This document shows, one piece after another, positions 3,426 through 52,844 of a stretch of DNA of 57,092 nucleotides. The notes under the pieces were generated by a model, which searched no databases, was not told the origin of the DNA, and worked only from the letters and a program-made list of their open reading frames with translations. The stretch is from positions 2,198 through 59,289 of the forward strand of contig NW_003107091.1 of assembly GCF_000003605.2 (NCBI RefSeq), in the 5' to 3' direction. The DNA is from Saccoglossus kowalevskii. Lineage: Eukaryota > Hemichordata > Enteropneusta > Harrimaniidae. The position numbers were made by a program, and so were the translations under genes. Within the stretch, counting starts at the first letter, position 1. Each line of letters begins with the position of its first letter.

Positions 3426-3432
3426 TGACATG

Positions 3433-4268: not shown

Positions 4269-4329
4269 TAAATTTCCACAGTAGTTTCGAGAAAAAAATA
4301 GTAGTTCACATCCTAACATAGTAAAAAAA

Positions 4330-4673
4330 CTAGTCTTTTTCAGGGCAGAAATATTTATTGGGAATTCTGTATGCAGCAACGTACACATGACCCACAGAAA
4401 CCCGAGAAACCATAAACAAGATGTTGCCAACAATCTCCATGGAAACAGCCATGAGGGCACCTCTACTAGTGACTTCATTAGATGAGCTACTCAATTTCTT
4501 TTGACCAATCATATATCCAGATGTCCACTCAACAGCAGTGACATCATCATTATTGGTGATGATGTCATCAATTTCAGTGGTTCTCCAAAATAGGATCTGA
4601 CCATCCCAACCAGCTGACACCAGATAATTTCCGCTCGGAAGAAACTGAACAGCTGACACAAATGATGCGTGGC
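4330..4673 (-). CDS. WD40/Cys-module gene, terminal exon
   Basis: The acceptor is ttgtatacag. The exon encodes residues 628-740 and the stop codon at 4330-4332. GHASFVSAVQFLPSGNYLVS followed by GWDGQILFW is an almost textbook WD40 repeat. The C-terminal tail ends in EKD. A minus-strand AATAAA lies inside the coding sequence at 4354-4359, just before the stop, and a 91 bp satellite begins about 60 bp beyond it. Confidence 0.88.
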
Positions 4674-7600
4674 CTGTATACAAAATATGGAATATTTTAA
4701 AACGCATTTTTAAAAATTACACATGGTATGAAATTTAAATATATTATGTGCACACAGGTCATAAGCAAAGAGATGAATTTAAGACACAAAATAAAATATA
4801 ATTGTTTTAGGCGTTTACATGAATCAGGAAAATCTACCGGTAATACTACATCAAACTTTTTTATTGGCGCCTTCTAAGGTGAAAATGTTTAAACATTTTA
4901 AAGTTAATGATGTAATGCAAAGTAGATTTATAAACTGGATTTAATTTGAGCGGATTTGATATTAATCACTAAAGTAGGTACCGGTAATCACTGGTTTGTG
5001 GAATAAACAATACAATAGTTCAATTTGCATAATCGCTATGTTTTATCACCAGACTTCCTTGCCTAAATTTTCTGTACTTTTTTCTTATATTCTTCAATAT
5101 TTCTGGAAATGAACTCTAATTTTGGAGCCAACAGTAAAATTTTTGGTTTTTACTCAAAACATTAGGCTATTTTTGTCCCAATCTTCTGAAGGAAAGTGCA
5201 GACTATAAACAGGGGTATTTTGTGAATATGTGATGGAAGAGGGAACTGGTGGTGAAAAAGTTTATTTATTATTTATTATTAGTTGTCAGCCAAATAGAAG
5301 AAAATTAAAGTCAGCAAATAATTAAGCCTTTATAGTGACTACTGCAATTTCCCACTGATATCAGTCAATCAAAATATGTCATGACATCATACTAAATCAA
5401 AATCTGCCATGACATCATATCAGTAAATTAGAATCAGCCATGACATCATATCAGTAAATTAGAATCAGCCATGACATCATATCATGAAATTAGAATCAGC
5501 AATGGCATCATATAAGTAAATTAGAATCAGCCATGACATCATATCATGAAATTAGAATCAGCCATGACATCATATCATGAAATTAGAATCAGCCATGGCA
5601 TCATATCAGTAAATTAGAATCAGCCATGACATCATATCAGTAAATTAGAATCAGCCATGACATCATATCATGAAATTAGAATCAGCCATGGCATCATATC
5701 AGTAAATTAGAATCAGCCATGACATCATATCATGAAATTAGAATCAGCCATGGCATCATATCAGTAAATTAGAATCAGCCATGACATCATATCATGAAAT
5801 TAGAATCAGCCATGGCATCATATCAGTAAATTAGAATCAGCCATGGCCTCAGAAGATAAAAATCTGCCATTGACATTAGTAAATCAAATCAGACCAGAAA
5901 CGTTTTGTTTTTTTACTTACCTTTTAATATGCAGCATTTATGAAATATGTCTGGAGAAAGTTGTTTCTTTGGTGTAACTACAAAAAACAAAACATATGCA
6001 TATTTATTGTCAAAAGAATTAAGTAGATGCTTGAACAATGGTAGATTACAGCATATAGAGGGCAGTAGATATACATTTCAACGTCATTGCCGGCTACCAT
6101 CTTAATAACAAATACTGCAACATATTGCACTTACGATAATGGACAGTATTCTTTCGTTCTACCACTTTCTCTGACGATGACCTCATGTAGAATATGGTAA
6201 CGTTGTCATCTTCACCACCGACAGCCAACAAACTAAAAAATCGATAGTTAGATGTTTGAATTCAATGATATTTGGGATGTTTGGTAGCGGGAGAAGACCA
6301 ATCTGTAGGACAGGAACCCAGAACATGATAATTGGGTTGACAAATTTAAAGGGCAGTAGTCGTCGCGCCCTGCATGCACGAGATATATGGGTCTCATATA
6401 AACAAAGATGGCGACTTTGACTATTGCGCAGATCATCTAGTACAAACTGAGACGTTACAAAGCTTAAATTTAGCTAGTTAATTTAATTAATATTTTTTAG
6501 GCAACTGGAAGGTATTGAAAGAGACACCGGCGGTAATTATTGCATGTCGCGCTCAGGTCAAACCTCATACTTCCATTAGAAGAGCGCATTGGATTGTGGG
6601 AAAATCAATGTTTATCAACAAAAAATGTCGAACATGCACAGCGCGACAATTGCCGCCCTTTAAAAAAAGAAATGTTTTTGTTTATAGTTGTTGGATTGAG
6701 TCTTATTTAATTTTATTTAACTAAGCTGTTTGGATGGACAGAAAAATAAGTTGAGTTTTAAAAAAGATTTTGGTTTACACTTAGTTATACATGTAGGTAA
6801 AGTAAAAGTAATTGTATTGCAATACCAACAGATGATTACATGTGACCTCTTGGAAACAAATTCAAAGAAGTACTGGGAATGTAAAAGAAAATAATCAGAG
6901 GATCACGGAAGAATTGTCTACTTTTCACAAAAGTTACCTTTTAAGAGGATGCCATGTTATGCATCGAACTGAACCATATCCAATTCTGCCTTGGTTGATA
7001 CAGGATAGATACAATTCTCTATGATACTTCAATTTATAGAAGATGACATCGCCAGAATTTGCATATCCAACGGCGCAATATCTACAGAATAATTACAATG
7101 TCCAATGAGAATAAAGCTATTAGTATATCATCTTCATGATTGGGTAGACAATGAGTTTATTCACCAAAATGAAAGTGTTTTCAAACTGAAGATGACAAAA
7201 GCTGAAAATTGTGGTGACCTGACCAAATGACCAATGACTACAGGTATCAAGAAATGTCCATATACATGTACTGTAAAATGTATCTTGTACAAATTTGGTG
7301 TAACAAATGATATATTTTACACACATTGTATATGTTGTAAGGGACTCACATGAGGCAACCACCCTTTAAAGTTGTTAAATGAATTTGTGATTGTGATAAA
7401 GTATTTCCTGTATTACAATTGCATCTCAAATAAAAACACACACAAACCAAAATAAATGCATTTATTGTGTTCTTAGTCAATGAAGTATTCTTCAACATTT
7501 TTATGAATGATGGTCCGTCATGGATTGGATAGTGATCACGTGAGAGTGCATATGTCACTGATGATGTTTTGACTTTGTGACAAGTTTTGAGGAACTCGGT

Positions 7601-10600
7601 CCGGGTACGTTTGAGAAATCAATCCATGATGAATTGAATAAATGAATGGATGGAAGAGTTCAAACTGGATCTAAATAGTAAGTATGTTTGTCAGATTTTC
7701 TCTGAGCAAGCACAACTAAAATATCAGAGCTTACTGTAAGTTTGGAGAGACAGCAATTGTTGAAATCTGCTGTTGTATATCCCCTATATCTTGAATTAGT
7801 TGTAATTTGGTAACCTCGGCAACCATCAATTGCCACAAACATAGATGACCATTCTTGTAACCAGACAGAAGATAGCATGTATCATTCTTCTCAAACCAGC
7901 AGAGCCTGGAAATCAGTAATGTATAATATCAAGGTCGTAGAACATTGACGAACTGTCATTTTTCAGAACAGTAAATCGGTGTATGAGTATTTGACAAGCT
8001 GCTTAGCGGTAAAAGTCATTTAATACACATGTTTACTGATGACATCATTTTCCCACAATGCAGTGCATTGTTATCAAACTTAAAATGGCTGACAAGCATC
8101 CTTTTCATAGGTCACAAACAACTTTACAGTTAAATGCTGGAACAAAAAATCTAGACATGTGAAAACTGTGGCACTTCAATACTCTGTTTGACCAAAATAC
8201 AGATTAGGGTTGGAAGTAGTTTTGCAGTCAATAGTTGTGTTCACATTACACAAAGTACGGGCTAAGATTTAAGCTGATTTCGGCTTATCTAGCATATTTG
8301 CATTTCGGCTAGACCCAATTGCGTCCACGCACAGGGAGAGCCAGTCGTTAGCACGGGCTAAGGTGCAAGTCGCTATTTACGAACGAAAAATGGATGATAC
8401 GCGCGAGGTTCTATTTCTGCTGCTGACATGTTTTGTTCTAATTTTGAAGCGACGTGCACAGGAACGCGAGAGAAGACGGACCCAACTTATTTGGATGCAC
8501 AGAAACAGTATACAACGGCGTAACAGAAAACAGAGTTTTATTAAATGCATGTCGTAGACAGCGAACCAACTTTATTTTGTCTACAATTGGTGCTACTGTA
8601 CGCTCTACTACAGCGACCCAATCAGTGTGGAAGCGTGTACACTGAGCTCGGTTGCCATTTTGGGAATGAGAAAGTTGGATATATTTGATCACGTGCATAT
8701 TGTTCACACCCAAAGGTCGCCGCAGAGGGCGCTTAGCCCTGGGCTAAGCGTTCGCACACACTTCGTTAGCCCGTGCTAAGGGTCTAGACTGCGTCTTAAA
8801 TTCGGATCAGATTTAACCCGTACTTAGAATTCCTTAGCCCGTGCTAAGCGTTCACGCACGTTTGCTTAGCACGGGCTAAGGAATTTGACCTCTTAGCCCG
8901 TGCTAAGGAGCTGTGCGTGAACGCAACTAATGTGAAGCTACAATGTATTTACAAGACTCTGCTTGATTGGCTACCCAACCCTAACACCTAACAATCAGAC
9001 CAATCAGAGAGCAGCTTGTATGTTGACAGGTTTTTTGAATGTATCAAATTCAACCTTGTATTTATGCATCAACTCTACTGTAGTTTTGCGGGTACTTCAG
9101 GTTTAGCAAGATGGAGTATCAAAGAACAAGGTACTGTAATTAATTCTCAGATAAATCAGAATTAGAATAAAAATTATTGGAGAAAATCAAGATATAACAT
9201 ACTTACTTGGTTAAAGAGGAGGAAGATGGATTACCGTCAACTACAATAGCCTCACATTTATCATTATATAACTTATATAATGATAATATACCCTTATTGG
9301 AGCCTAAGGCAACAGTCAATCTGTCTCCTGTGGAGTGAACAGCGGAAGAACGTTAATGTACAAACATTAACATAATGGCAGCATTTTCGGCTTGTTATCA
9401 ATTGTTAGAGCGAGTGCAAATAGTTAAAGAACTCTCTTTATCAAATCAGTAGTGATTACTGGAGCCACATTCTAAGTGAAATCAATGACAATATGTAAAG
9501 ATTAGGCCAGACTTTTATTATCCCTTGTTTCACGAACCCGCCGAATGAACAGGAGCCGAAAATGAAATAAAAATAAAATTTTATTTCAGCGTAATTTCTC
9601 GCGCCCGCTGACTTCTAAACGCAAAAAATTGCTAAAAAGAAATTATTTTTATCTTCATTTTTTTTATGCCCGCCGCATAACAAATCTAAGTTCATTTTCG
9701 TGGGAGTATCATGATCAAAGTACCGAGGTCTCGCGCAGATGAGAAACAAGGTTATACATGGAATATAATTTTATTTCATTTCTTCTCTCTGATCACACTT
9801 ACAATTCTTTGAGAATCACACAAATCTAATGGATTAATTTTTTTTTTTCGCCCTCCTCAAAAAATTGCCTTATAAAAACCCGAGAAGCAAGGAATAAAAA
9901 AGTCTGGCCTTAGTCGTATATACTGACGATGCATGAAGGCAACATGTATTTCATTTTATCAATCGTCTTTCTCTTGTGAATAAACATTGTCATTTCTGAA
10001 GCAAACAAATCAATATCCACCCACTGACAATCATTGACTGTCGTTGCTTATATGTCGGCTGAATTGTGACTTTTTTACTTACACCTACAGATTAATCATA
10101 TACCGTACTTCCCCGATCAAAAGCTCAGGGGCCTGAACATGTCAAATTGGGAAAATTAGGGAGTGGGCTTATACTCGAGGACCGTCTCAGAAAAAAAAAT
10201 TTGTTGGGGGGTTTAAAATTGAAACCATCTTGCCACCCACAAAAAATTATTCAAATTACATTTTTCGTTAACAGCACCGGTCTTGGAGAAATATTACGTT
10301 GTTTTAAGGAAAAAAATGTGAAACGAGTCGTCATGATCTCCACGACACATGTTCATAAAAATACACACATTTTATTACAATACTGTTTACATACCATCTG
10401 AATTTACAGTGCAAAAATGAGTAGGGTCTGTGGGAAAACAGTCGAAGGCAAGATCATTATCATTATCATTATCATCGTTGTGGAATGTTTTCGATCGTAT
10501 GCAAATTCTAGATACAAAGCAATTTCCGCCATGGTGTTTTTCATCATGATTTGACCTGAACAACTTCCTTTGACCTAACAGATCTTTCGTTAACCAATGA

Positions 10601-13600
10601 AATTGCTGTGTCATACAGACAAAGTTTTCCGATCAGAAGTGAATTACCGCGTTGTTAAAATGCGATTAACACTGATTTCTACAAAAAAAAACGGTGATTT
10701 TTTCCTCTAAAAGCTGTTGATTCACAATTTTCGAAAGGTAAACTGAGGGTTGAGGAAGTATTTAAACCTTTCACGGTCTTCAACAAGTTAAGTTGAAGAA
10801 TAGTTTGCTCGTTCAATGGACGAAAACTACTACTCAAAAGAAATATGGATTACTTCAGTATTGCAATATCAGGGTTCATCCTGAGTAAATAACAGAATAG
10901 AATGTTCCTACGTTCGCTCCCAGGAACCAAACTACCATACTAATCACAATTATTAGGCAATGAAATACACTTTTACATGCATATTTTAATAAATGTCATT
11001 GACACTCGGAAAAACACCTTGGGACTATACACGAGGATGCCCTCAACTCATTAAATGTCTAAAAATAGAGGGGTGGGCTTATACTCGGGGAGGGGCTTAT
11101 GCTCAGGGAAGTACAGTATATACGCTGAATATTATTCAAGTTATCACGTCCACAAAAAAAGTTTACAACACTGACAACAATGATGCTATCACTACCGACA
11201 AACATTTTGCCAGTACTACGATTTTCCTTCACTTACGGGAAACCCAACAGTGAAAATACGGTAACTGGATTTGATACTTGAAGTGAGGTGAATACCTAAA
11301 AAAGATTGTTTCAAGAAATGAGCAATTTTCTGAGCAATAACCCATCTCTGTATACTACTTGTACTTATCATTTCAGTAGATATACTATGTATGTATACCA
11401 CTTGTACTTATCATTGTCATTAGATATACTATGTATGTATACTACTTGTACTTATCATTTCATTAGATACTGTAATAGGTAACACTGATATGTAATTATT
11501 ACTTGATTCCAATAAATATTAAAAAAAAAAAATGGATTTGATACTTTACCTATTTTAACCGGACACCACATCAAACTGGTCACAGGGTCACATGTTTTGA
11601 TATAAATCTGATGACTACCACTATTTAGATTTTCTAATATACTATAGATAGACTTCTCCTCTAAATTGTAACGATTCACAAGTTGAGAATCGCCGATCAA
11701 TACATCACTGTAACGATAAATCACAATTTCGTTTCATTCTCAACGTCTTCAACATTACCCTAATATTTTTTGAGCCTAGCCACCATCAGAATTCTTTCCA
11801 GGATTTCTGGATTTGTAAAATTTCAATGTTACTAATAAAAAAATAAAAGAGAATTATGTATACTGTAGAATACTTTATTTTCGCTTGGAATATATTTTCG
11901 TTATTTTCGCTGAAGGGATGATTCCGTGAAAATAAAATCCAGCGAATATACTTTTTTCCTATATTTCACATTAAACTCATAAAAAATCAGTGAAAATAAA
12001 TTCCATACAAAACTCCTAAAAAGCCCTTTAAAAATTAATTCCAGCGAAAATAAAGTATTCCACAGTAGTATATAATTTAATTTGTTTAAATTTCTAAATT
12101 ACAATTGTAAAATTTATCAACATATTGAAAAAAAAAAAGTATCACAAAATTTTTATTTTTATTTCGGAAAATAACAGCATTGCACACAGAATGAAAAACA
12201 ATGATCACTTGTGCAAGAACATTTTGCTTTCATCTACAAAAATGTACGTCCCATTTCTCTAAACATCAGTATTACCTTGGGAATGATTCATCACCATCAC
12301 TTTTCCTCTTCCGTTTCTGTTTATTCTTCGGTTCAACCTTTACCTCTGCACAGCCAATGCCTTCACTGCTTTTTCTCTTTCTTGTCCCGTGTATGGTAGG
12401 CTGTTTCTCACTCTGACCATTGGTGGCAGTATTTAGCAAAAGTCCAGAGATTTGTTTTGGTAGAATGCAGCATTTGATATGGTATGTATTTGAAGTGCTT
12501 GAGTCTTTAGTTCTGGCAAATGCCACCTAAAACGTTCATTAAAAATTAAAATAATATTATTTCACGCTATTTCATAAAAATAAACATTCAATATCATTCA
12601 AAACACGAGGTAATAATTAATTATTTGTTACCATATGATACAATGTTACATTTTACATTCATTTGCATGGGGTATATGCATCGACCTTATTAGGTAATGC
12701 AAATTCCAAATATGGAACGATTATGCAATCTTTTCAAGATGGCAGATGTACATGTATATCTAATTTGTTTCAGTATTGATTTTTTTTTCTAATTTTTTTT
12801 GTGTGCCAAGCGACAAGTTTTGAACATTGAATGTCGCTGTCGTCTCTCCTGACTTTTGTTATTAAGCCTTATTTAGCAAGTTAGAAGCTCCTGTTTATAT
12901 GGCTTTTGGTTCAAACTTTATTGAAACATTGTATGAATTGTATTCACAAAAGGTTAAAATGAGAATCAGGCTCAGAATTGAACACAAGGAACATATTCCA
13001 GTGTTGTAAGATACAAGGATTCCAACTGTGCCAAGATCTTGCACATTTGACAGGCTATTGTGAATCTGGGAGTTGATTTGAACATAAAACGGTTTGACCA
13101 GCCGTCTGGAGACTTGCTCAAGTTTGCTATTCCCAAAATTTGTGTGACCATATCAGAGGACCAAGATGGCCATGCTCGTATTAACGTGTTTGTGTTCTAT
13201 GCAAACTAGTTAGCAGTGAGTACCGAACATATGTACAATAGTACATTGTGTATACTGTAAAATACTTTATTTTCGCTTAGAATTAATTTTCGCTGAAGGA
13301 AAGATTCAGTGAAAATAAAATCCAGCGAATATACCTTTTTTCCTATATTTTACATTCAACTCATCAGAAATCAGTGAAAATAAATTCTATACAAAATGAC
13401 CAAAAGTCTTTTCAGTGAAAATTAATTCCAGCTAAAATAAAATATTTGACAGTAACTGATTGGAGAGTAATGTTCACTAACTAACAAAGAATACTACTGG
13501 TAGTACTTAATTAACAAATCAGTTAGTTCAAATATGCAAATTTACCTGACTATTGACTTCAGGAATCGGCAATAACAACGCAGCAATCTCACTACTAGTA

Positions 13601-16600
13601 TAGTGACTTGACGTTTGAAATCCAACCACTTTAACCAAAGACAATACAGCAGACTTTTCCTTAGCTCTCTGAAAACAAAAGTAAATTTATATTGTTTATA
13701 ATATTATTAGTTATGCCATTGAACACAATACAGTAGCTGGTTCATCAGCCTAAAAACCATCTGGGGAAACCAGAAAATGCATTTTTACGCACACCACCTC
13801 AGAGATTTGGAAGCCCCCTTAAAAATAATGTTTAAGGGGGGGGGTGTCGCCTCGGACGTCCTAGTAAGGTTGCGCTTTCGGCACACGGTTGGTGAGCAGA
13901 TCTCGCCCCTCCCCTCCCATGCAAAATTCCATACTGCTGCCTCTGCTGAGAATTTCAGAAGTTACTGAATCACATAATCAAATGATGAATGCTCATTGGT
14001 TGAACCACAGAGAGCAGCTGTGAGGTCACATGACTAATCAATACAATTTGATTGGATAAAATCCCTCACCTTTATAGTTTCCTGAGTTGTTGACTCTCTA
14101 TGGTTTTCTAAACTATGCAGACAACTTGGACATGGTAGTGCAGCCAGCAATGGCTTTACTAACTCCTGACTAGAAACAAATGCAAGACATGTCTGTTTAT
14201 TGGAAACACAAACACACTTCTACTCATTACGGAACAAGAATAATGTGCATTTTATTTATTGCTCTATGTAATATTGAACTGACTTAGAAGCCACACAGAG
14301 AGCAGACCTGGCCTGAATGTGGTGTATCTTTTTAAATATTGACAATAAATAAATGCGTTTAGGGGAGGACCATTTGAAGTATGGGGCATGGGGGGGGGGG
14401 TGATTTTAAAGAAGTGATATTTTTTTTATTTTTTTTTTAAAGTTTTTTTCATATTTAATTACAACTGAATATATACAATATATATACAAGTCGATTGTGG
14501 TTAGATTTGTTTTTTACTTGAACTTCCAATCCCCTCCCAATTAATCTAATTGGTCCTCCCCTTGGGATATCTACATTTCTAAATGTGCTGAACAATATAA
14601 TTCTGAAAGTCATAGCAGTGTTTTATTACTCACGAGAATCCATTGAATTTCAAGCATATTTTCATGAGGTCATCGAGACTGTAACCTTTGCATCGACATA
14701 TTCTGTGAGTACTCTGGAGAAAAAACACAAAATACAGTGGAAATAGAACCAGTGTAAATTATCTGATGCATGCTTATTACTGAAGTATTGGATACCTCAC
14801 GTACCCAAAGATCAATCACACCAGGTTGATGAAATTCCAAAACAATCATACATGTACACAACTTAGATGACAATTTCATTTTGATGACTTGAGTGTAGCT
14901 GTGTTACAGTGCCCCCCCCCAGCTGAGGGACCAGAAAATAATGGACCGGATACGGCTTTTGCGACCGAGGTCGTGCGGCCAGAAACGCCTGAGCTTGCGA
15001 AAGCACGCGAGCCGTATGACCGAGGTCAGCAAAAGCCGTATTTTTGGATGTTTTTTTAAAACTTTGGGGTTTTATGATTACCAAAACTTTGAAAAACAAG
15101 CAACAAATAAATAAATAACAAGTCATCGTCAATGACATACTGTGGAATACTTTATTTTCGCTGGAATTAATTTTCCCTGAAAGGGCTTTTTGGGTGTTTT
15201 GTATGGAATTTATTTTCAATGATTTTTGATGAGTTTAATGTGAAATATAGAAAAAAAAGTATATTCGCTGGATTTTATTTTCACGAAATCATCCTTTCAG
15301 CGAATATAGCGAAAATAAATTCCAAGCGAAAATAAAGTATTCTACAGTTGTCCCCATTTGCATTATAGCCATGAGATATCACAATAATACCAAGCGATAT
15401 CCATGATATTGACTTACATGTATAAAATATGGCTCAAGGGAACTGTAATAGTTTAAACAAGATGGCCGCCAGTCAGACATTTAGAATTTTGATGGTGATA
15501 AACATGCATGTGTGTTTGTCTGATATAATGTCTGATGTATACATGCAGTTTGTACTTGATTGATCCAGGAATGTTGAAGATGCATTTTGAACACAAATAA
15601 AAAATATGTTTAACATATGTATGAAGAGTAATCTGCATTTGCACGACTGACATTTTTGGCCTTGAAATGACTGCCATTCCGCCATCTTGGATTGGATCAT
15701 GAAACAAATGCCCTATATGATGTATGTGTGAAGTTTAAACTTGATTGATCCAGCCAAGTCAAATATATGGATTTAGTACCAGTGTTATTTTAAATACACA
15801 AATAATCATTTATTCATTATTTAATAAGTTGGTTGCCAAATAAAATTGATAGTGTGTTTCTGGTAACATTGAAAATAAAAGTAGAAACAGCTTTTTATTT
15901 TATGAAAATTAATTTATTATTCTGCAATGCTACTAACCCACACTGTTATATGAAAGTATTTTTCAATAATACACCACATCTTGCATGTACAGGTTGATAT
16001 TTGGGTCAAAAATAAAAAATTTCAAGAAGACCTGAAACAAGTGTCTATTTTCCATAACAAAATACAGGATCGGCCAGAAAAATCTATACATGGTCAGGTT
16101 ACCGAAAACACATTATTTTTATTTTATTTGGCTTTAGAAATTATTACAATGATATTTAAGATGTCTTTGATTGGTTGACAGTTTACAACAGAGGTACTTG
16201 TACAGTTATGTTAAGTATCGCAGTCTACCACATGGACCAGCTCAGCTAAGAGTTTCAAACGAACACCACTGAGGGCAGCATATACAAACTGCAAGGTGAG
16301 GCATAACTCTAGCCCAGAAATCAAGATTTTGGAACTGTCAACTTTTAGAAAATGTATATTTACCTGCTCCACAAGTTCATCGGGATCTACGCAGACTGCT
16401 TCAAACCACTCAGTCATGTCAGTTTCCTCATCATCCGAGATGACGTTGTGTTGTTTCACTTCACAGTGGCATCTCAGTTGACTGACTGATGAAAACTCTA
16501 ACATGATGTAGTGGTCTGTTTCTGATAACGGTCGATGTGCATCAATGTGGTGTTTGCATCCGGTACATTGTCTGGCTTGGGGTGTGGCCACTGGCACGCT

Positions 16601-19600
16601 GAACAATACAGAAATCATGGTACATAATACTACGGTACATTATTCAGTTTTAATTAAACACACTCAAGTGATAAATTAACTACAAAATGAAAACAGAACG
16701 AAACATAGTTGAACTTTGGTGACCTTGCCCTTTGTTATATAATACTATTCCCTTCATCATAGTTTGTTTCAATATGAATTGGGGTTGAAACAACAGTGAG
16801 GAATCAGTCTACCAAATGTCCTTGATAGATGTAAATATCTTACAAAAACTTTAGTGCCTAATATGTTTAATTATTTTAAGGGACATAATTTCCAACTTTA
16901 TTCAAAGTAATTCAGATTTGTTATTATAAAAACAAATGCTGCATCTCAGAAAAAAAGTGCTGCATTTAGACGTGAATAGATTCATAAATCATGCAAGATA
17001 CCAGGAAATCTTAGCTGGCTTTTGCCCAAGTATTTTGTACAGGTGTCTGTCAAAAATTAATGATTCACCGAGACAAATATTAACTGCCTTATTATATTCA
17101 TTGTGTGAAAAGTAAAAAAAACACCCTCTATCATGTTGCAAGCTCTGCTTTGTAATGCAAATCAACTTAAATAGTTAGTTGGTGTCCAGTGAGAGAGTCA
17201 ACAGTACTTTTGTCTCTACATCTTCAAACTTTGCAATCTTTGATTTTTAAAGTGCATATTTAAATAATTATTATTACTATATCAATCTGTTCCAATAGCT
17301 GAAAGAAATTCCTGTGAATTTTCATTTGTCGAATGAACTGTTTGTCAAATATATCTTAGTACAATTTTCTTTTCAAAATGTGGATGCAACGTTTTGCTTT
17401 TTATGTATTTTTTATGTATTGTTTTTGATTTTATAACTTTGGACTAAACAGATTTTCTATTAGATTCAGATCTTGATCAAAGTTTGGCACCCAATTCATA
17501 GGAGTGTTTATCTTGTTTTCTGTAAAGATTTTAGAATTGCAAATGTGTATCAGACTGTGTAAACACTATGAATGAGTTGGTTTTGAAACCCAGTCTAGTA
17601 TTCCCATGGGATTTGAGAAATACATTACCAAGGATATTATTACAAGATAAATGATTTGCTTCATTGAACACAGACAACAATGCATATTTCCACCTTTGAA
17701 TGTGCATCACCAGTGATCAGTCAAGTAGAAACAGTCAAAATATTTATATCAGATATTCTCAGATTTTCTAAATTTTTGCATGATATATTTACACAGAACA
17801 TCTGTTGTTCATACTCAGGGAAGACTTTATACTGGTGAATAAAGTGACCAAGTTTGATGAAGTTTGGAATAGAATTAGTAAAGTTATTGTGCACACAATA
17901 ACAATTATTAACAACGACGACAACGCCGGACAGAAATTTTTCCCTTAATATACCTTTCCTTTCCATCATTGATGTTACGTCAAGGTAAAAATGTACATGT
18001 GTATTAATATGACATATCACGCTATCAATGCTGGGTTTCAGATTGTAACTTGTTGTCTAGTTTATGTTTCCCTAGTTCTACTACTGTACGGTGAATGTAG
18101 TCAATATCTAGAGTAGATATTAGCATGGTTGTGAGCATTGTAATATTTATTTTCCGTTGACCCCTTTGTGGCCAACTATTTCTATGGTAGCACCAGCTAC
18201 AGGAGATGGTTGTTTTAGCCACAGAGGGCACAACTCTACCCTACTCCACTGTTTGCTGTTTGCAAATGAATTGTCTCAGAACCATTTTGTTTGGTGTGGT
18301 GTAAATGATATCAAATGATCTAAATAGATAACTATTTCATGTTTATATTTGTAACTGCTGTACGCATCAAAAAAGGATAAACTCTATAGAATCACTAAAA
18401 GGAAGATGGTTCATTTGCATAAATTACTACCCAGATAACCTGGGCGTGGCAAGTTAGCAGTTGGGCTGGGTGTGGCAGAGGACTCCTGAACTTTCATTGA
18501 GAAGGTACTCGGCTTGGCTTATTCCAGTGTGCAATTTCACCTAAAAAAGGCTGTAATGGCACTTCCTGTAAATTATGAAGACTGTCACTGTATTTCGGGA
18601 ATGAATTTAGGGTTTGCTATCTGACGGGGTTTTTCTTTGTGTTTTGTTCACTCGCTTACTTTAGTTGTAAGATGAATGAATTGTAAGAATTTCTCGGATA
18701 GAAATAAAGCCTGGAATGTGTAAACCTGGCGATTCTCTACCATACATTGTGTTGTATCAACTTATTTTCAACTTGGTCACATGGTCAATACAGGAAACCA
18801 TGCACATTGGCCGCCCAGTGTGTATGGTAGTGTATTGCGTTCCTACTTACATTTATGTATTTGTAAGTTCATGTTTTTTAAGTTCACGACTGATTATTTA
18901 GATATGTTCGGTCGGGTAATTATTTAAGTTGTTTATATTTTACTGATTAGGTTGTGTTGTTAATTTGAGTATATGTACTGGCAGTTTATGCAAACTCGTG
19001 TCAACTAGTAACTAGCCAGACTGTATGGTGTTTAATGTGGGAGGGTGTCACCTGTGCACGTGCGGGAATTAAGTCCCAAGTGACGATAACAACACACGCT
19101 AAAAAGGCTCATGGGCAGACGGTTGTTTGTAAACAATGACATGCTATGGCCATCTGACGCATGCGCAGGTGACGACTCCCTCGCTCTAAATAAACTAATG
19201 CGTACTGAATGCACAACTCGGAACTGTAAGCGTTACTTAGTTACTAGATTTCTACTACTACTGTAACAGTGTCTTTATTGTGTGCGAGTGCTTGAACATG
19301 GATTGCGTGCACAGATCCAAATGAACCCCCAACATTGATATCTATGCACAACACAAATATGTTTACCTTTCATCTGGTCTTTGGTAACCTTGGCAACTGC
19401 ATCCAATACAAGGATACGTTTCAGCCTTCTCCATTTGCTCTTTCTTCTGTTTATCACATTTAGTTGGCAGTCGGTGGTCTGTTTGTTTGTGTCGACACCC
19501 CTGGCAGGTAGGTAGGGAGAATGTCGGTTTGAACCCTCCTTGGGGTGCGGTGAAATCATCACAATCACATCGGGGGTACTGACATGGTGTGCCACTTTTG

Positions 19601-22300: not shown

Positions 22301-22304
22301 GCAC

Positions 22305-23008
22305 ATGAGGATGCATATTCAACAGTGATTGGTTAGACTTGATCACATGAGGAGAATAATCAACTGTGATTGGTTAAGCTTGAACACACAAGAATCGTCA
22401 ACAGTCACTGGTTAGACTTGCCCACATGATGAACATATTCAATAGAGATTGGTTTGGCTTAACCACATTTGAATTGTCAACAGTGATTGGTTAGAATTGG
22501 CCGCATAAAAATTCTTTTCAAAAGTGATTGGTTAGAATTGCCCAAATGAGAAGAATAATCAACAGTGATTGGTTAGACTTGCCCACATGAGAAGAATAAT
22601 CAACAGTGATTGGTTAGAATTGCCCAAATGAGAAGAATAATCAACAGTGATTGGTTAGACTTGCCCACATGAGAAGAATAATCAACAGTGATTGGTTAGA
22701 CTTGACCACATGAGAAGAATATTCAACAGTGATTGGTTAGACTTGACCACATGAGAAGAATATTCAACAGTGATTGGTTAGACTTGCCCACATGAGAAGA
22801 ATATTCAACAGTGATTGGTTAGACTTGCCCAAATGAGAAGAATAATCAACAGTGATTGGTTAGACTTGCCCACATGAGAAGAATAATCAACAGTGATTGG
22901 TTAGACTTGACCACATGAGAAGAATATTCAACAGTGATTGGTTAGACTTGCCCACATGAGAAGAATATTCAACAGTGATTGTTAAGGCTTGCCCACATGA
23001 GGGTAATA
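22305..23008. repeat. 41 bp tandem array with a CCAAT box in nearly every unit, 17 units
   Basis: The unit reads CAACAGTGATTGGTTAGACT, then TGCCCACATGAGAAGAATAAT. On the minus strand each intact unit contains AACCAATCAC, a full match to the NF-Y consensus RRCCAATSR. By eye 15 of 17 units keep ATTGG. The first five units are more diverged. The array lies about 2.3-3 kb upstream of the first recognised WD40-gene exon. Confidence 0.92.
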
Positions 23009-23354
23009 GTTGATTTTTTTTATAATTCGTGAAAACATTTACATATTTTTTTTTTCTGGAGTTGTTAATATATTATTTGTTAAATGGAGACTGCATTGCA
23101 TATTTTAAATAGCTGCATGTCGGAGATAAACTAAAGAGGTTAGTACTCAAACTAGACATGCATTAAATATTCTGATTGAAATGATAATATTGTCTTTAAA
23201 AGTCTTGTACTTTTTCACACACTGCTCTTAACTGATAACCTCTCAATAATTCATTTACTTTTTTTTGATTTTAAGTCTTGATTGTCATTTCATTTTGAGG
23301 GCATACCAGTGATTTTCCTCTGATGCACAAACCTGAATCTGATAAAAACATATT

Positions 23355-23660
23355 CTAACTCGCCTCATTCTAATAACAAAATGGTGGACATTCTAACTAG
23401 CCTCATTCTGATAACAAAATGGTGGACATTCCTACTAGCCTCATTCTGATAACAAAATGGTGGACATCCCTACTCGCCTCATTCTGCTAACAAAACGGTG
23501 GACATTCCTACTAGCCTCATTCTGATAACAAAATGGTGGACATTCCTACTAATCTCATTCTGGTAACAAAATTGTAGATCTACTAGCGTCATTCTGATAT
23601 TAAAATGGTAGACATTCCTTCTAGCTTCATTCCAATAACAAAACGGTGGACAATCCATCC
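23355..23660. repeat. 38 bp tandem array, about eight units
   Basis: The unit is CTCATTCTGATAACAAAATG, then GTGGACATTCCTACTAGC. The last units are more diverged and vary in length. It lies 350 bp after the 41 bp array and is unrelated to it in sequence. Confidence 0.88.
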
Positions 23661-32400: not shown

Positions 32401-35400
32401 TTTTGTACGAAGTGATGACCTGTGTCATCAATATTTTGAATACTGTGGCCAAAATATTGGTAACCTTGTTTTTGTCAAACCAAATGCTGAAGTAACATTC
32501 AGATCACGAGTGATAATGTTATGATAATGTCACATGGCATTACTTGGCCAGAAATTAAACTGATTGAAAACTGTTCAAGTAGTTGTAATCACATTTTCTA
32601 GTATGTCTCATTAATTGACTCTTTGAAAGCTTTAAAGTCAACTTTCACAAAATGACTACAGACAAGAGGTGTTTCTAGCATCTAATAATTCAGTACAAAA
32701 AAAAAACATTTTTTGGTTTACATGAATTATTATTGACATGTGCTTCTAAAACAACAAATTTGGTTACACGCAATGAAACAAATATGTCTACCNNNNNNNN
32801 NNNNNNNNNNNNNNNNNNNNNNNNNNNNNNNNNNNNNNNNNNNNNNNNNNNNNNNNNNNNNNNNNNNNNNNNNNNNNNNNNNNNNNNNNNNNNNNNNNNN
32901 NNNNNNNNNNNNNNNNNNNNNNNNNNNNNNNNNNNNNNNNNNNNNNNNNNNNNNNNNNNNNNNNNNNNNNNNNNNNNNNNNNNNNNNNNNNNNNNNNNNN
33001 NNNNNNNNNNNNNNNNNNNNNNNNNNNNNNNNNNNNNNNNNNNNNNNNNNNNNNNNNNNNNNNNNNNNNNNNNNNNNNNNNNNNNNNNNNNNNNNNNNNN
33101 NNNAAAAATGTTGCTTTGAAATTTCGATGGTTAAAATAATGGTGCTCAAAAGTACAAATTCACACCAAAATTTTGTTTAAATTAAATCATATTCTTGACT
33201 CCCTCTGGATTTTTGGATTTCTGTTTGAATGCCATTAAAATTCTGGCATTAATTTTTTAGTCAAGACCTGTACTGGAGGCAATCGGAAATTATATCTATG
33301 AAGTATAAGACTGAAATTAACATTTGAAAAATATAAACAAAATGTTGCATTAACAAAATTTGCAGAAAAAATTGAGGCTTTTAAGGGTTAAACTTTTTAT
33401 TTGAAACAAATAAAGCAAAAATGGCAGCAATTTAGAACACATACAAGCTTAATGAATTTTTACTGCTAGGAATACTTGAGATTTCAGGATTTTAAGGCAC
33501 TTGTGAAGAAAAGTAACTCTGTGTTGTAGAACCCCAGAGAAATGTTCACTGCTATGAAAATTTGCTCTCAATAAATTATAGCAGTTTACAGAAACAAATA
33601 TGATTTATGGATCATGATATGATATGTAATCTTTTATAATCATTTTGTAATATTTAGTAAATCCGAATTTTATTTTATCACAATTTATATTAAAAAGTTT
33701 AGGATAGCGAAAACAATGGTAATTGTCATAGACAAAAAAAAAAAAAGAGTCTAACCAATTCATGAAATAAATCTCCCGATTTACCTTTAAATATATTCAA
33801 ATGTACACAATAGCAAAAAAAAACGTGAATTATGGAGTAAAAACGTAAATTATGGAGTACAAACCTGAAGAACGTATCCTCTGGCATAATCTTCATACAT
33901 CCATCCAAGACCATGGAGAACCTGAATAACTTCATCATGTTTCAATACACTGAAGAGACGATCCAGGAGAATCTTTAGTCGTATAGGAATCGCTTGGGTG
34001 CCATACAGGATGAGACTTCCGATATCAAATACGATATTGAACTGGACCACTTCGACTTGAAATGACGGATAGAGATGACGTGTACTGAGTTTGTCCATGG
34101 CTGAATTAAACAGATACCAAGCCTGGCTCAGTGGTTGATGGCTGATGATGATTTAGTGTTGGCAGGAACATGCAGATTGCAAAGCGATGTAGGAATCCAA
34201 CTTTTCTCATGCACAGATATAAACACGAAGAGACCAACAAACTCATGCACACTGAGCTCAAAAAGATTAACTAAAGCAGGAAGCGATCACAGATACTACT
34301 GGTGTTATAACATATAATGTCATTTGTTAAACTATATACATGTATCACTTCATATAAACCCTAAACAGAGAGAATAATTATTTCTTTTTTTTTCAAAAGT
34401 ACTTTAACTGGACTGATCTGTGGGCATTATACACCCACACGGTGCTGGTGGGTAAGTAATTATATTTTACTTTTTAATACTACTATTTGCTCTATTAGTA
34501 GCCCATGCAAAAATATAAATAACAGACAAATATCGCTATGGTCAAAATAAAGCTATAGTGTTAAAGATCCAGCATATGATATATGTATTTGCCTTATTTT
34601 TACTTCTTTTGATGATGTGCTTTTAACAGAATAAGGTATAGGTGTATACTGTAAAATTTGAGCTGGAATTAATTTTCGCTGAAAAGATTTTTTGGGTGTT
34701 TTGCATGGAATTTATTTTCACTGTTTTTTGATGAGTTGAATGTAAAATATAGAAAACAACGTATATTCGCTGGATTTTATTCTCACTGAATCATTCTTTC
34801 AGCAAAAATAGCAAAAATTAATTTCAAGTGAAAATAAAGTATTTTACAGTATGTTTATAACTACTTTCAAACCATCACAAACAGATTTGAATTTAAATTT
34901 TATTCTACAGTACACTGCTTTATTTTATTAACTGAGCTTTATCAGTCTAACCCTGAATTAATTAACTTTGATGAACTTTGAAGTACTTAAAAATGCATGT
35001 GACAGACATCTCACAGGACAGTGATGAGCTTGTAACACAATTTGTATTGAAAAATACATGTTGCATAATTTTGACAACTTAAGACAAATTCAAATTTCGC
35101 ACTACGGTACTGAGTATATTACTGTGCATATATTTGGGGAGAAAAACTCCCATTGTATATAAAGTAAAACTATTACACAGGGAACTCAGCCAAATAAATG
35201 TAAACGTTTTGCCAATAATATGATTCATATCAATAATAATACATAACTTTTCAATCTCATGTCAACGAGCACAATTTTGAGATGAGATGAAAATGTGACC
35301 ATTTTCGATGTCATTCTATGTAATGACTCAGACATAAAGATTTTCCCATGAGCCCATTATAACTGAAGCATGAGAAGATGACATTTAGTCTTCTATTCAG

Positions 35401-50400: not shown

Positions 50401-51644
50401 TTGAACTTGATCAATCCAGACATGTCTTGGATACGGATCCAGAACTGAATTCTTTAACAAAATGGCCGCCAGTCGGCCATTTCAAACTTGATCCGAAAAA
50501 AAAAAGACGTGCATCAAGGTCCTATTATGTTTAATGTATGTACCAAATTTGAACAAAATCCATCCATGCATAACTGAGATACCGGGTCCGGAATGGTGAA
50601 AATGTGCGATTTCAATGCATTTTCGGCCTTAAAGCGGCCCCATTTGGCTATCGTTAATGAGATCATGAAACAAATGCACATACATATTTGTGACATGATG
50701 TACCTTGTGTGTGTGAAGTTTGAACTCGATCAATCCAAGCATGTCTCAGATACGGATCCAGAACTGAATTCTTTAAAACAAAATGGCCGCCAGTCGGCTA
50801 TTTCGAACCCGATCCAAAAAAAAAAAAGACGTGCATCAAGGTCCTATTATGTTTAATGTATGTACCAAATTTAAACAAAATCTGTCCATGCATAACTGAG
50901 ATCCGGGTCCGGAATGGTGAAAATGTGCGATTTTGATGCATTTTCGGGCTTAAAATGGCCGCTATTCGGCTATCGTTAATCGGATCATGAAAAAAATGCA
51001 TGTGCATATGTCCCATATAATGTGTGATGTATGAGTGAAGTTTGAACTTAATCGGTCCATGCATGTTCGAGATACAGGTGATCACGGACGCACGGACGCA
51101 CGGATGCACGGACGCACGGACGCACGGACGCACACAGGGCAAACCATAAGTCCCCGTTTTCGGACTACGTCCGAACGGGGACTAATTAAGCATTTTTTTG
51201 CAGCAAACACATGTCATTTTGAAATACGCCACAAAAAATCCATTATGAGCTTGGGTCAGAGTGCACCAGTTTAATTTATTTGAAAACAGTTGAAACTTAA
51301 ATTTTTTTTCTAAAGATGGACGATTTTAATTTAATTATATTTAATTATAATTTACCAAGCATTGACAATACACCTAACAGTGAATTACGCTAATAATATA
51401 TTTTATATTAATACAATGTACAACCATTGCTGAAATGTACATGAAACTAAAAAGGCACTAGAGGAAGCAGACACCAGACAGGAACATTAAGCAAGGCAGT
51501 ATGCAAGGCAAATAAAAGAACTACCAGGTATGTGTACCTACCATGAGCCACCCAACCGTGTTTACATGAATCGCAGGTTCGGATATGTACCTTGCCAGGG
51601 GAAAAACATTCACACGAACAATTTGGCAGTGTGCAGCGGATCGC
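26487..51644 (-). CDS. BNC2: Basonuclin (BNC1/BNC2 family) zinc-finger protein, start-codon exon not found
   Basis: Three exons (51644-51542, 34100-33865, 29468-26487) join with GT-AG introns and matching phases into about 1106 residues, close to the size of vertebrate BNC2. Residues 1-34 are the N-terminal Cys/His module ending HGWVAH. Residues 36-113 are the conserved basonuclin block with [20 protein letters not shown]. Later segments include [13 protein letters not shown] and three separated pairs of C2H2 fingers with the typical RSRNRHS/RSRDRHS ends. In vertebrates basonuclins are nuclear DNA-binding regulators of epithelial, germ and mesenchymal cells; this role is inherited by inference. 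The AIRCT start and DKLST motif are closer to BNC2 than to BNC1, but an invertebrate single-copy gene is probably co-orthologous to both. The first exon should encode a short M-x-E-like start ending in phase 0. Confidence 0.95.
29469..31072. other. Basonuclin intron, proximal part, no exon recognised
   Basis: AT-rich intron. A roughly 60 bp segment is duplicated near 30690-30830 (AGTCCATGTAATAC and TGTATTCTG repeated). TACTGTATTCACTCTATTA at about 30252 belongs to a dispersed TACYGTATTTGCTCTA end family also seen near 31880, 46048 and 46940. Confidence 0.45.
31073..31318 (-). CDS. Possible exon or retroposed fragment of unknown protein inside a basonuclin intron
   Basis: The minus-strand frame is open from about 31318 to a TAA at 31073. 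It reads as balanced protein sequence ([20 protein letters not shown], then [13 protein letters not shown]) with more CpG-containing codons than the intron around it. No ATG-promoter context is evident and the upstream splice site is unclear. It could be the last exon of a nested gene, a retrocopy fragment or chance. I do not recognise it. Confidence 0.28.
31959..32284. mobile_element. MITE with CARGGGTTTTTCTA ends and TTGAC duplication
   Basis: The left end CAAGGGTTTTTCTA matches the inverted right end CAGGGGTTTTTCTA. TTGAC flanks both sides (31954-31958 and 32285-32289). The element is 326 bp, more GC-rich than its surroundings, and has no ORF of note. The CA-start TIR suggests hAT, but the visible duplication is 5 bp rather than 8 bp. 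Confidence 0.72.
32793..33103. other. Assembly gap of 311 N
   Basis: A run of N within the basonuclin intron between 33865 and 29468. ORFs reported through it are meaningless. The joined basonuclin phases show that no essential coding exon must lie in the gap, although an optional exon could. Confidence 1.
33865..34100 (-). CDS. BNC2: Basonuclin conserved-block exon
   Basis: The acceptor is tttaattcag and the donor GTTTGT. It encodes 78 residues from [11 protein letters not shown] to GYVLQ, including [20 protein letters not shown] and [14 protein letters not shown]. This is the best-conserved non-finger part of basonuclins. The Met at 34098 is internal, because the frame and split codon continue from the exon at 51542. 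Confidence 0.95.
34101..37970. other. Large basonuclin intron, distal part
   Basis: Apart from the MITE at 34647-34851 I see only AT-rich intron. No exon with paired splice sites and coding sense was found. A fragment TACTATTTGCTCTATTAGTAG at about 34480 belongs to the dispersed TACYGTATTTGCTCTA family. Confidence 0.45.
34647..34851. mobile_element. Palindromic ACTGTAAAAT MITE, copy A5
   Basis: Starts TACTGTAAAATTTGAGCTGG and ends AAGTATTTTACAGTA. It has lost about 10 bp of the left TTTATTTTCGC block but is otherwise collinear with 11861-12067. Confidence 0.8.
37975..38560. repeat. Higher-order tandem array, about 149 bp period, rich in CCACACCCACC
   Basis: GGGATAGCCACACCCACCAA recurs at about 38093, 38243 and 38392. 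Each 149 bp unit contains three CCACACCCAC boxes, plus CCAGAGCTCCACATGTGGC and AGCCTGGG blocks. CACACCC/CCACCC is the core bound by KLF/Sp-type factors. The several 130-160 codon minus-strand open frames here are by-products of the repeat. Confidence 0.88.
39187..39384. mobile_element. Palindromic ACTGTATAATACTT MITE, copy A6
   Basis: Starts TACTGTATAATACTTTATTT and ends AAAAGTATTATACAGT, with the family's internal TTTTCGCT and CAGTGAAAATAA blocks. Confidence 0.8.
39385..48420. other. Large basonuclin intron, middle part, no gene supported
   Basis: Nine kilobases of AT-rich intron. Fragments of the dispersed TACYGTATTTGCTCTA family occur near 46048 and 46938. A C-run (48360-48371) and a G-run (about 48210-48221) border the next array. 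Open frames of 60-80 codons at 45300-45540 and 46960-47205 have no splice or codon support. Confidence 0.45.
48424..49972. repeat. About 60-65 bp tandem array with a CArG box and an AGGTCA palindrome per unit, about 24 units
   Basis: The unit reads GACAGGTCACATGTTGACCT, then GATAAAGATGACAGCCCTTA, then TATGGATGGAGCTAATATG. By eye CCTTATATGG, a perfect SRF-type CArG box, is intact in about 19 of 24 units. AGGTCACATGTTGACCT, an inverted pair of nuclear-receptor half-sites with a 5 bp spacer, is intact in about three quarters. Unit length varies slightly (GATAAAGATGAC versus GAGAGATGAC variants). Confidence 0.93.
50117..51186 (+). mobile_element. Helentron/pearl-like non-autonomous element (HINE)
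   Basis: The 5' end carries the palindrome GTCATTGTCAATGAC, then CGTCCCCGTTCCG. About three core repeats of roughly 320 bp follow (ATCCATCCATGCAT and ATTTTCGGCCTTAAA blocks at about 50229, 50550 and 50873), then an (ACGGACGC)n microsatellite at 51083-51133. The 3' end is a hairpin (51149-51183) with arms AGTCCCCGTT and AACGGGGACT, ending in CTAAT. The 5' GTCCCCGTT is the inverse of the 3' arm, as expected for the subterminal inverted repeats of Helentron-associated elements. Bivalve pearl elements, from memory, have similar core repeats and an ACGG microsatellite. No protein is encoded. Confidence 0.72.
51083..51133. repeat. (ACGGACGC)n microsatellite inside the Helentron-like element
   Basis: About six tandem copies of the 8 bp unit, one carrying a G-to-T change (ACGGATGC). 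It lies just before the terminal hairpin. Confidence 0.9.
51542..51644 (-). CDS. BNC2: Basonuclin exon with the N-terminal Cys/His module
   Basis: The exon starts in phase 0 after ttttccactag with AIRCT and ends one base into an alanine codon at GTAGGT. It encodes C-x4-C-x-C-x-C-F, then PGK, then C-x2-C-x-H-G-W-x2-H. The long open frames in the other phases at this locus are shadows. Joined to 34100, the split codon gives alanine, as in vertebrate basonuclins (VAHA). Confidence 0.93.
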
Positions 51645-52843: not shown

Positions 52844-52844
52844 C

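Follow-up and report, generated by a model that had tools for sequence, protein, structure and literature searches.

The Zn region of PCAF_N in KAT2A (GCN5) and KAT2B (PCAF) (PF06466; structure 7by1) is one of the closest described systems to the module reported here. In the available sections of PMC8586995, the GCN5 site is given as a binuclear Zn2Cys5His2 cluster with the crystal ligands C107, C113, C115, C142, C145, H147, and a second histidine, together with W118. The same sections state that one residue is inserted between the first two cysteines in GCN5 and PCAF relative to the Pfam logo, and that the PCAF_N Zn region is unlike other ubiquitin ligases. A similar Zn2Cys5His2 binuclear cluster is mentioned for the RAG1 dimerisation domain; this likeness is as stated in the review (PMC8586995). 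For Basonuclin 1/2, the domain list in the available part of PMC2776513 consists of three zinc-finger pairs, an NLS, and a serine stripe, and that list does not include an N-terminal Cys/His module.

The window, defined here as the whole 57,092-nucleotide stretch of Saccoglossus kowalevskii contig NW_003107091.1 that was analysed, carries a basonuclin gene on its minus strand, followed by an unnamed WD40-repeat gene as the next gene downstream. Judging from their sequences, the N-termini of the two encoded proteins probably share a small zinc module with the GCN5/PCAF Zn region. Basonuclin has one copy, contained in a single exon, and the WD40 protein carries a tandem set of three. The features are listed in Table 1.

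Table 1. Features of the basonuclin gene and the WD40 gene, in positions of the window.
Feature	Position	Strand	Description
Basonuclin exon with the entire Cys/His module (AIRC...VAH)	51542..51644	-	acceptor AG/GCG, donor G/GTAGGT; phase 0 in, 1 out
Following basonuclin exon, with the helical region downstream of the module	33865..34100	-	79 residues align with human basonuclin at 70% identity; splice sites checked
Basonuclin last exon, paired C2H2 zinc fingers, ends at stop codon	26487..29468	-	
WD40 gene	4330..19962	-	720 residues from 14 exons, chosen by eye and then checked; the 13 introns are all GT-AG
WD40 module 1 (residues 22-58), C-x4-C-x-C-x2-F-x15-C-x2-C-x-H-x4-H	19474..19584	-	wholly in exon 19367-19617
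WD40 module 2 (residues 80-115), first half C80-x2-C83-x-C85-x2-Y88	19367..19410	-	runs to phase-2 intron
WD40 module 2, second half C105-x2-C108-x-H110-x4-H115	16535..16567	-	
WD40 module 3 (residues 175-222), first half H175-x2-C178-x-C180-x2-Y183	14634..14707	-	runs to phase-2 intron
WD40 module 3, second half C212-x2-C215-x-H217-x4-H222	14100..14132	-	
WD40 gene exon with basic stretch KNKQKRKRKSD	12276..12526	-	sequence inspection
WD40 gene exons of the C-terminal propeller	4330..11707	-	

By sequence, the upstream gene is a basonuclin (Basonuclin 1/2, Disco family). It contains the N-terminal block, the FGETKS block, and three paired C2H2 fingers, the last recognised by inspection; PF00096 matches two stretches (23.2 bits, cut-off 25.2). 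The module exon is identical at 24 of 34 residues to human basonuclin (E 3e-16), which indicates that the exon is real, and two later exons also match the human sequence. A single-sequence AF2 model of the exon after the module gives three helices with a pLDDT of 60.0.

The WD40 gene model lacks its start exon, and the initial base of its opening codon is assumed. One candidate for the start exon (20366-20360), the only one found by a simple rule, is not believed. Pfam WD40 matches cover residues 377-662 (PF00400, 52.3 bits, cut-off 27). Four of the 25 Pfam families listed for the protein pass their cut-offs: PF00400, PF23383 (IFT140 first propeller), PF23389 (WDR19 first propeller), and PF12894 (ANAPC4_WD40). 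The protein shares C-terminal WD40 repeats with these propeller families, but the four span different stretches of it with modest scores. CDC20, EML, WDR3, and others fall below their Pfam cut-offs. The protein appears to belong to no named family, and its architecture seems to be unnamed by Pfam. Its basic stretch resembles a nuclear localisation signal and may act as one. Searches of the same genome for paralogues of either gene returned only the window's own exons among the best candidates listed. Among ten further long frames in the window, the only Pfam match at E up to 0.01 was to PF07839, in a tandem array (17.7 bits, cut-off 24).

A six-frame scan of the window for C-x4-C-x-C-x2-[FWY] gives two matches, 51603-51635 and 19552-19584, each of them on the minus strand. 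The scan for C-x2-C-x-H-x4/5-H gives four (51543-51575, 19474-19506, 16535-16567, and 14100-14132). The scan and the spliced model both agree with the original prediction that the two neighbouring genes share a Cys/His module, with one copy in the first and three in the second. Modules 1 and 2 lie at the predicted residues; module 3 had been placed at 198-242 and lies instead at 175-222, and the gene model behind that placement evidently had about 20 extra residues. The predicted spacing is exact in basonuclin and module 1 only, since module 2 has C-x2-C rather than C-x4-C and module 3 starts with a histidine. The aromatic residue after C-x-C is F in basonuclin and module 1 and Y in modules 2 and 3. 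Internal duplication is the probable origin of modules 2 and 3, because each is interrupted by a phase-2 intron that lies ahead of the second C-x2-C by 11 or 13 residues.

Composition does not explain the pattern. With a first gap of 2-5, it occurs twice within single reading frames of the window and in none of 150 second-order Markov windows. Shuffling 200,000 times, with C or H allowed as the first ligand, reproduced it once for the 273-residue N-region of the WD40 gene and never for the 113-residue region of basonuclin, its 34-residue exon, or exon 2 of the WD40 gene. Shuffled sequence, here and in the comparisons below, does not stand for a background of real zinc proteins.

All seven KAT2A ligands map in order, and nearly in spacing, onto every window module, with a histidine in place of the first cysteine in module 3. 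The inner spacings C-x-C-x2-aromatic and C-x2-C-x-H-x4-H are common to the window modules and the PCAF_N Zn region. KAT2A reads C-x5-C-x-C-x2-W ... C-x2-C-x-H-x4-H, whereas the first gap is x4 in basonuclin and module 1 and x2 in the other window modules. The position of W118 is also aromatic in the window modules, but as F or Y and not Trp. The gap between the halves is 9-28 residues in the window modules and 23-24 in the KAT2 Zn region. Neither an acetyltransferase domain nor a bromodomain was seen in the window proteins. The shared pattern suggests a shared small zinc-binding module in basonuclin, the WD40 gene, and GCN5.

Five module profiles were run against the PDB (177,635 distinct sequences and E up to 10 in the search with profile A8). 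KAT2A came first in two of them. Profile A8, made from the four window modules and the FAM221 module of this genome, retrieved only KAT2A (7by1 and 10dw; E 0.32 and 0.33). With human FAM221A in place of the genome's own FAM221, KAT2A took ranks 1 and 2 of 4 (E 0.18 and 0.19). The alignments in both searches begin at the second ligand cysteine. Profile A1, built from own-genome sequences only, placed KAT2A 6th and 7th of 9 (E 1.2). The basonuclin-rich profile A3 missed KAT2A and gave XPA at E 0.012, over the second half only, and the profile of the 113-residue basonuclin region retrieved nothing. A single-sequence search with the WD40 N-region gave only XPA (E 0.38-0.44) and missed KAT2A. No KAT2A match in the PDB searches reached significance; judged by the profile test that came with the original prediction, the result is borderline. 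With E allowed up to 10, Pfam PCAF_N (cut-off 24 bits) did not appear for either N-region or for single modules; KAT2A as a control scored 396.6 bits, and most matches above about 0.1 are removed by the HMMER filters. Homology to GCN5/PCAF, also part of that prediction, is supported by ligand order and inner spacings and is not proven.

Shuffles of the KAT2A Zn region never reached the real score with the genome-only profile (0 of 5000), the profile of modules plus basonuclin (0 of 5000), or A1 (0 of 4000). By hhalign, A1 matches KAT2 at E 2e-4 with a probability of 47%. The E-values for KAT2 are 3.4e-5 with the WD40 modules together and 7.6e-5 with module 2; those for basonuclin are 1.9e-4, 1.5e-4, and 9.2e-6 with the WD40 modules together, module 1, and module 2, respectively. 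None of 300 column shuffles scored as high in any of these five comparisons. The three-module alignment in this series has the first half of module 1 out of register. Smith-Waterman scores were reached by none of 3000 shuffles for module 1 with basonuclin, module 2 with module 3, and module 2 with KAT2B. When a KAT2 and FAM221 profile was used to rank 1428 reading-frame segments of the window by best-domain score, the four WD40 module exons came 1st, 2nd, 4th, and 7th (E 0.6-11), and the basonuclin exon was outside the top 12.

Other pairs are weaker. The direct link between basonuclin and KAT2 was equalled by 6 of 300 shuffles in hhalign and by 537 (KAT2A) and 21 (KAT2B) of 3000 in Smith-Waterman. 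Module 3 was equalled by 804 (basonuclin) and 49 (KAT2A) of 3000 shuffles in Smith-Waterman, and by 56 of 300 with basonuclin in hhalign. A KAT2-only profile against the four window modules was matched by 18 to 73 of 3000. Past the module, the comparison with KAT2 picked up nothing more: basonuclin and KAT2 align over 14 columns only. The profiles were shallow, and of the connecting coiled coil and MSL3-like region that follow the Zn region in PCAF_N, the latter lies outside the 113-column KAT2 alignment. An extended module 1 aligns with KAT2 over 11 columns and not past the second half. The AF2 model of the module 1 exon from a two-row alignment had a pLDDT of 39.7, and its fold is not usable. 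Pfam PCAF_N, the KAT2A N-region, and a shorter Zn-region query found no KAT2 in the same genome, an empty answer that is uninformative, and the comparison rests on KAT2A/KAT2B sequences for this reason. An acetyltransferase-bromodomain query gave three matches there, all in its last 100 residues, which are presumably the bromodomain.

These results bear on whether unrelated short zinc knuckles converged on the same spacing, in which case the modules would work alike locally but would have no common ancestry, either with GCN5 or among themselves. The PDB E-values for KAT2A (0.18-1.2), the small likeness outside the ligands, and the basonuclin pairs with KAT2A and module 3, which are within noise, are what convergence would give. 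It would not readily give seven ligands and an aromatic whose order is the same and whose inner spacings are fixed. Nor does it sit well with KAT2A as the sole retrieval of A8, the 0 of 5000 shuffles from profile to KAT2A, or the WD40 modules beating all shuffles against KAT2 or basonuclin in five of eight hhalign (300) and two of nine Smith-Waterman (3000) comparisons. Convergence is considered unlikely.

The original prediction also raised exon shuffling or local duplication, in which one gene would have gained the module from the other as its neighbour. The genes are adjacent on the same strand and a phase-0 intron precedes both modules, but a phase-0 start alone is common. The two exons end differently and in different phases (basonuclin 0 in and 1 out; WD40 exon 2 0 in and 2 out), and human basonuclins have the module, while KAT2 and FAM221 have the pattern too; local copying is for these reasons unsupported. 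Basonuclin and module 1 also share mostly ligands (12 identical columns). This origin is very improbable.

FAM221A/B (PF14753) has a nearly identical pattern. Human FAM221A and this genome's FAM221 read C-x4-C-x-C-x2-[FY] ... C-x-C-x-H-x4-H, in which the second pair has one residue fewer than the C-x2-C of the window modules. Pfam FAM221 was not listed for the window N-regions or single modules. Smith-Waterman scores against human FAM221A were equalled by 0 (module 2), 1 (module 1), 64 (module 3), 92 (basonuclin), 1015 (KAT2A), and 676 (KAT2B) of 3000 shuffles. The three-module profile against FAM221 was equalled by 6 and 13 of 5000 shuffles, and the values for this genome's FAM221 were 109 and 938 of 5000. 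Against profiles A1 and A3 they were 243 and 66 of 4000, and in hhalign 113, 272, and 65 of 300. A two-row FAM221 profile was equalled by 146 (module 1), 4893 (module 2), 126 (module 3), 571 (basonuclin), and 1079 (KAT2A) of 5000. With near-identical pattern but mixed statistics, FAM221 is not accepted as a proven relative.

DUF6422 (PF19986) matched module 1 at E 0.048. It was not found in the same genome; a single match below the cut-off (E 0.09) came from an 841-residue frame of one Streptomyces plasmid record. The likeness, known here from the profile match alone, is taken as chance. A tblastn search of plasmids and phages with the module region gave one record at E 4 and two at E 10, which were rejected.

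In the proposed module, two zinc ions would be held by five cysteines and two histidines, and the aromatic after C-x-C would pack the core. Basonuclin would carry one such unit ahead of its helical segment and C2H2 fingers, and the WD40 protein three ahead of a basic linker and beta-propeller. By analogy with GCN5, the module is most likely a protein-interaction surface. With three knobs and a propeller, the WD40 protein could act as a multivalent adaptor in the nucleus, perhaps one with a link to ubiquitin conjugation.

A stronger version holds that basonuclins, GCN5/PCAF, FAM221, and the WD40 protein form an unrecognised binuclear-zinc superfamily of working E2-recruiting cores, with basonuclins and the WD40 protein as atypical ubiquitin ligases like GCN5/PCAF. 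Mouse GCN5 without the Zn region loses ubiquitin-ligase (E3) activity, but the essential E3 region of PCAF_N is described as not known (available sections of PMC8586995). The window proteins, as far as shallow profiles show, have no sign of the PCAF_N part that follows the Zn region. A ubiquitin-ligase role for them would follow by analogy only, and this version is quite doubtful.

The best reading is a small interaction module with a binuclear zinc site, which several proteins of animals have reused and which is present three times in tandem in a WD40 architecture. If basonuclins and the WD40 protein do hold the same site, it would be a reusable module. The basonuclin N-terminus would gain a testable structure and binding role, and these natural variants would separate the zinc site from the remainder of PCAF_N.

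The basonuclin and WD40 genes are arranged head to tail, with basonuclin upstream, on contig C168 of the 572-Mb assembly, of which the window is a part. The 34-residue first recognized basonuclin exon, at 51644-51542, is taken up almost entirely by its module. Identity of the three basonuclin exons to human basonuclin is 71% (34 residues), 70% (79), and 57% (46). In the WD40 gene, all 13 introns are GT-AG. Once the exons are joined, the frame stays open over 720 residues; the model has no start exon, and the first base of its first codon was assumed. The propeller forms the C-terminal half of the protein (residues 377-662, Pfam). Four of the 25 Pfam families listed for the protein are above the cut-off (PF00400, PF23383, PF23389, and PF12894); the others, including CDC20 and EML, are below it. 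No family exceeds the cut-off in the N-terminal 300 residues. Among the best candidates scored in the assembly, only the window's own exons matched, and no paralogue of either gene was found.

Tandem arrays are numerous within and around both genes. The palindromic element in the WD40 introns, with inverted ends of about ACTGTAGAATACTTTATTTTCGCT, looks like a MITE family. In each of the six reading frames the run of N gives rise to spurious open frames.

Coordinates of genes, repeats, and the assembly gap (window positions, except for the FAM221 locus)
Feature	Position	Strand	Remarks
Basonuclin exons	51644-51542, 34100-33865, 29468-26487	minus	
WD40 gene, 14 exons	19962 to 4330	minus	exons chosen by eye
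Own-genome FAM221 (locus L015)	C994:592000-601900, matches near 3067-5523		PF14753
Palindromic element, ~220 bp	11853-12069, 13245-13462, 15130-15351		three copies, WD40 gene introns
Tandem array, 92-bp x9	3442-4269		
Tandem array, 31-bp units	5358-5845		
Tandem array, 41-bp units	22302-23001		
Tandem array, 38-bp units	23358-23656		
Tandem array, 149-bp units	38093-38555		
Tandem array, 64-bp x24	48422-49956		
Tandem array, 20-bp x44	51961-52843		coincides with long frames at 51867-52936
Tandem array, 43-bp x30	55803-57092		
Run of N, assembly gap	32793-33103		basonuclin intron

The same Cys/His pattern had been noted in both neighbors, once in basonuclin and three times in the WD40 gene, and it was found in these numbers, with spacings that differ in modules 2 and 3. 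The basonuclin module is C-x4-C-x-C-x2-F-x9-C-x2-C-x-H-x4-H. Module 1 is C-x4-C-x-C-x2-F-x15-C-x2-C-x-H-x4-H, and module 2 is C-x2-C-x-C-x2-Y-x16-C-x2-C-x-H-x4-H. Module 3, H-x2-C-x-C-x2-Y-x28-C-x2-C-x-H-x4-H, has His in place of the first Cys. The pattern arose in 1 of 200,000 residue shuffles of the N-terminal region of the WD40 protein, in none of 200,000 for each of three basonuclin and exon-2 stretches, and in none of 150 simulated windows, which excludes composition as its cause.

In the crystal structure of mouse GCN5 PCAF_N, as described in a review (PMC8586995), the zinc-binding region forms a binuclear Zn2Cys5His2 site whose ligands are C107, C113, C115, C142, C145, H147, and H151. 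C145 bridges both zincs, and W118 bonds with the E140 and G102 backbone. The same review gives 26 Pfam architectures for PCAF_N and notes one residue inserted between the first two Cys of GCN5 and PCAF relative to the Pfam logo (PMC8586995). From this remark we read the PCAF_N consensus as C-x4-C, which is how basonuclin and module 1 are spaced. KAT2A itself is C-x5-C-x-C-x2-W-x23-C-x2-C-x-H-x4-H, and counting on its sequence places the last His ligand at 152, so we attribute the printed 151 (PMC8586995) to a misprint or to different numbering. Judged by ligand order and the crystal ligands, every window module has a complete ligand set (His for the first Cys in module 3) and an aromatic residue at the W118 position.

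FAM221A bears a similar pattern; the protein sequence used was verified by Pfam PF14753 (329 bits). The own genome has a FAM221 gene (28.8 bits, cut-off 25) with the module VPCTQGGCLCKAF...KCRCKHTHEEH, or C-x4-C-x-C-x2-F ... C-x-C-x-H-x4-H, in which the second pair is one residue shorter than in the window modules. An extra partial copy (C-x-C-x-H-x4-H) lies in an earlier exon. Statistical support for FAM221 as a fourth family is mixed, and it is kept as a lead.

Five module profiles were run against 177,635 distinct PDB sequences. KAT2A was first in two, lower in one, and missed by two. Profile A1 (four window modules) placed it sixth and seventh among 9 matches (E 1.2). With A7 (the same modules plus FAM221A) it took the first two of 4 places (E 0.18 and 0.19), and for A8 (the four window modules plus own-genome FAM221, all rows from this genome) it was the sole protein retrieved, in two entries (E 0.32 and 0.33). 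The A7 and A8 alignments begin at the second ligand Cys. A3 (modules 1 and 2 and three basonuclins, two of them from outside this genome) gave six matches without KAT2A, the top one being XPA (E 0.012, second half only). A5, built on 113 basonuclin residues with two of its three rows from outside this genome, gave no match. A single-sequence PDB search with the N-terminal WD40 region matched XPA alone (E 0.38-0.44), not KAT2A. The window sequences had no listed match to Pfam PCAF_N, with which the KAT2A control scores 396.6 bits. By profile search the link across families proposed originally is borderline: KAT2A was top for A7 and A8, but no single PDB search reached significance for it.

In the reverse direction, a KAT2 and FAM221 profile ranked the four WD module exons 1, 2, 4, and 7 by best-domain score among 1428 window segments (E 0.83, 0.6, 0.77, and 11); the basonuclin exon was not in the top 12. 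With a KAT2-only profile, sixth place went to the basonuclin exon (E 6) and ninth to one of the WD module exons. Profile and sequence searches of the own genome did not find KAT2 (GCN5) and matched three bromodomain-like exons; the miss may be due to a gap in the assembly, to short exons, or to limits of the searches.

Shuffle tests count the shuffles that score as high as the real pair. Against KAT2A, A1 gave 0 of 4000 and A3 1 of 4000. The three-WD-module profile gave 2 of 5000 for KAT2A, 11 for KAT2B, and 4 for basonuclin. Adding basonuclin gave 0 of 5000 for both KAT2A and KAT2B, as did all five rows; adding FAM221A in place of basonuclin gave 0, 1, and 21 of 5000 for KAT2A, KAT2B, and basonuclin. 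The genome-only profile gave 0 of 5000 for KAT2A. With a KAT2-only profile, modules 1, 2, and 3 and basonuclin gave 73, 25, 47, and 18 of 3000.

By hhalign, A1 and KAT2 align with E 2e-4 and a probability of 47%. None of 300 column shuffles matched module 1-basonuclin, module 2-basonuclin, module 2-KAT2, or the WD modules with KAT2 or basonuclin, the first half of module 1 being out of register in the three-module alignment. Counts were 2 for module 3-KAT2, 4 for module 1-KAT2, 6 for basonuclin-KAT2, and 56 for module 3-basonuclin. Smith-Waterman counts of 3000 for modules 1, 2, and 3 were 1, 2, and 49 (KAT2A), 15, 0, and 13 (KAT2B), and 0, 12, and 804 (basonuclin). KAT2A-basonuclin gave 537 and KAT2B-basonuclin 21; pairs 1-2, 1-3, and 2-3 gave 1, 5, and 0. 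On these tests modules 1 and 2 bridge the KAT2 and basonuclin families. Those two families show only slight closeness between themselves, and module 3 is near mainly to module 2.

The common part detected among the families is the zinc module. The basonuclin-KAT2 profile alignment covers 14 columns, all inside the module, from shallow profiles of which the KAT2 one does not extend to the MSL3-like region. The stretch KKIRKKGAKSGTPC, upstream of module 1, is similar to KAT2A KKLEKLGVFSAC, including the Gly at G102 (by counting). For the extended pair, the shuffles that scored as high numbered 1 of 3000 with KAT2A and 15 of 3000 with KAT2B, but hhalign of these stretches aligned only 11 columns, all in the second half. 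This upstream likeness is suggestive, no more. The AF2 model of the module 1 exon, from a two-row alignment, has pLDDT 39.7, too low to be informative; that of the basonuclin exon after the module, from one sequence, has three helices at low confidence (pLDDT 60.0). At 19369-19617 there is also a weak Pfam match to DUF6422, below its cut-off (E 0.048), which covers the whole of module 1.

A phase-2 intron interrupts both module 2 and module 3, lying 11 or 13 residues ahead of the second C-x2-C, a shared placement that fits internal duplication. Exon shuffling or local duplication between the neighbors, proposed from their adjacency, is disfavored because the exon phases differ and because human basonuclins have the module. 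The basonuclin module fills one exon that is entered in phase 0 and left in phase 1, whereas the exon with module 1 is entered in phase 0 and left in phase 2.

Basonuclin is described with three zinc-finger pairs together with an NLS and a serine stripe (PMC2776513) or six paired fingers (PMC1975673), and Disco homologues with 4 to 6 in pairs (PMC2889900); the domain descriptions in these three papers do not mention an N-terminal Cys/His module. In the open-licence literature, no statement was found linking basonuclin, WD40, or FAM221 proteins with GCN5/PCAF_N; earlier notice of such a link elsewhere is possible.

GCN5 without its zinc-binding region loses ligase activity (PMC8586995), and ligase activity of PCAF and GCN5 is likewise reported (PMC9477270). 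By analogy with GCN5, the module is most likely a compact interaction surface. The WD40 protein, with its three modules, its propeller, and a basic linker between them, would probably act as a multivalent nuclear adaptor.
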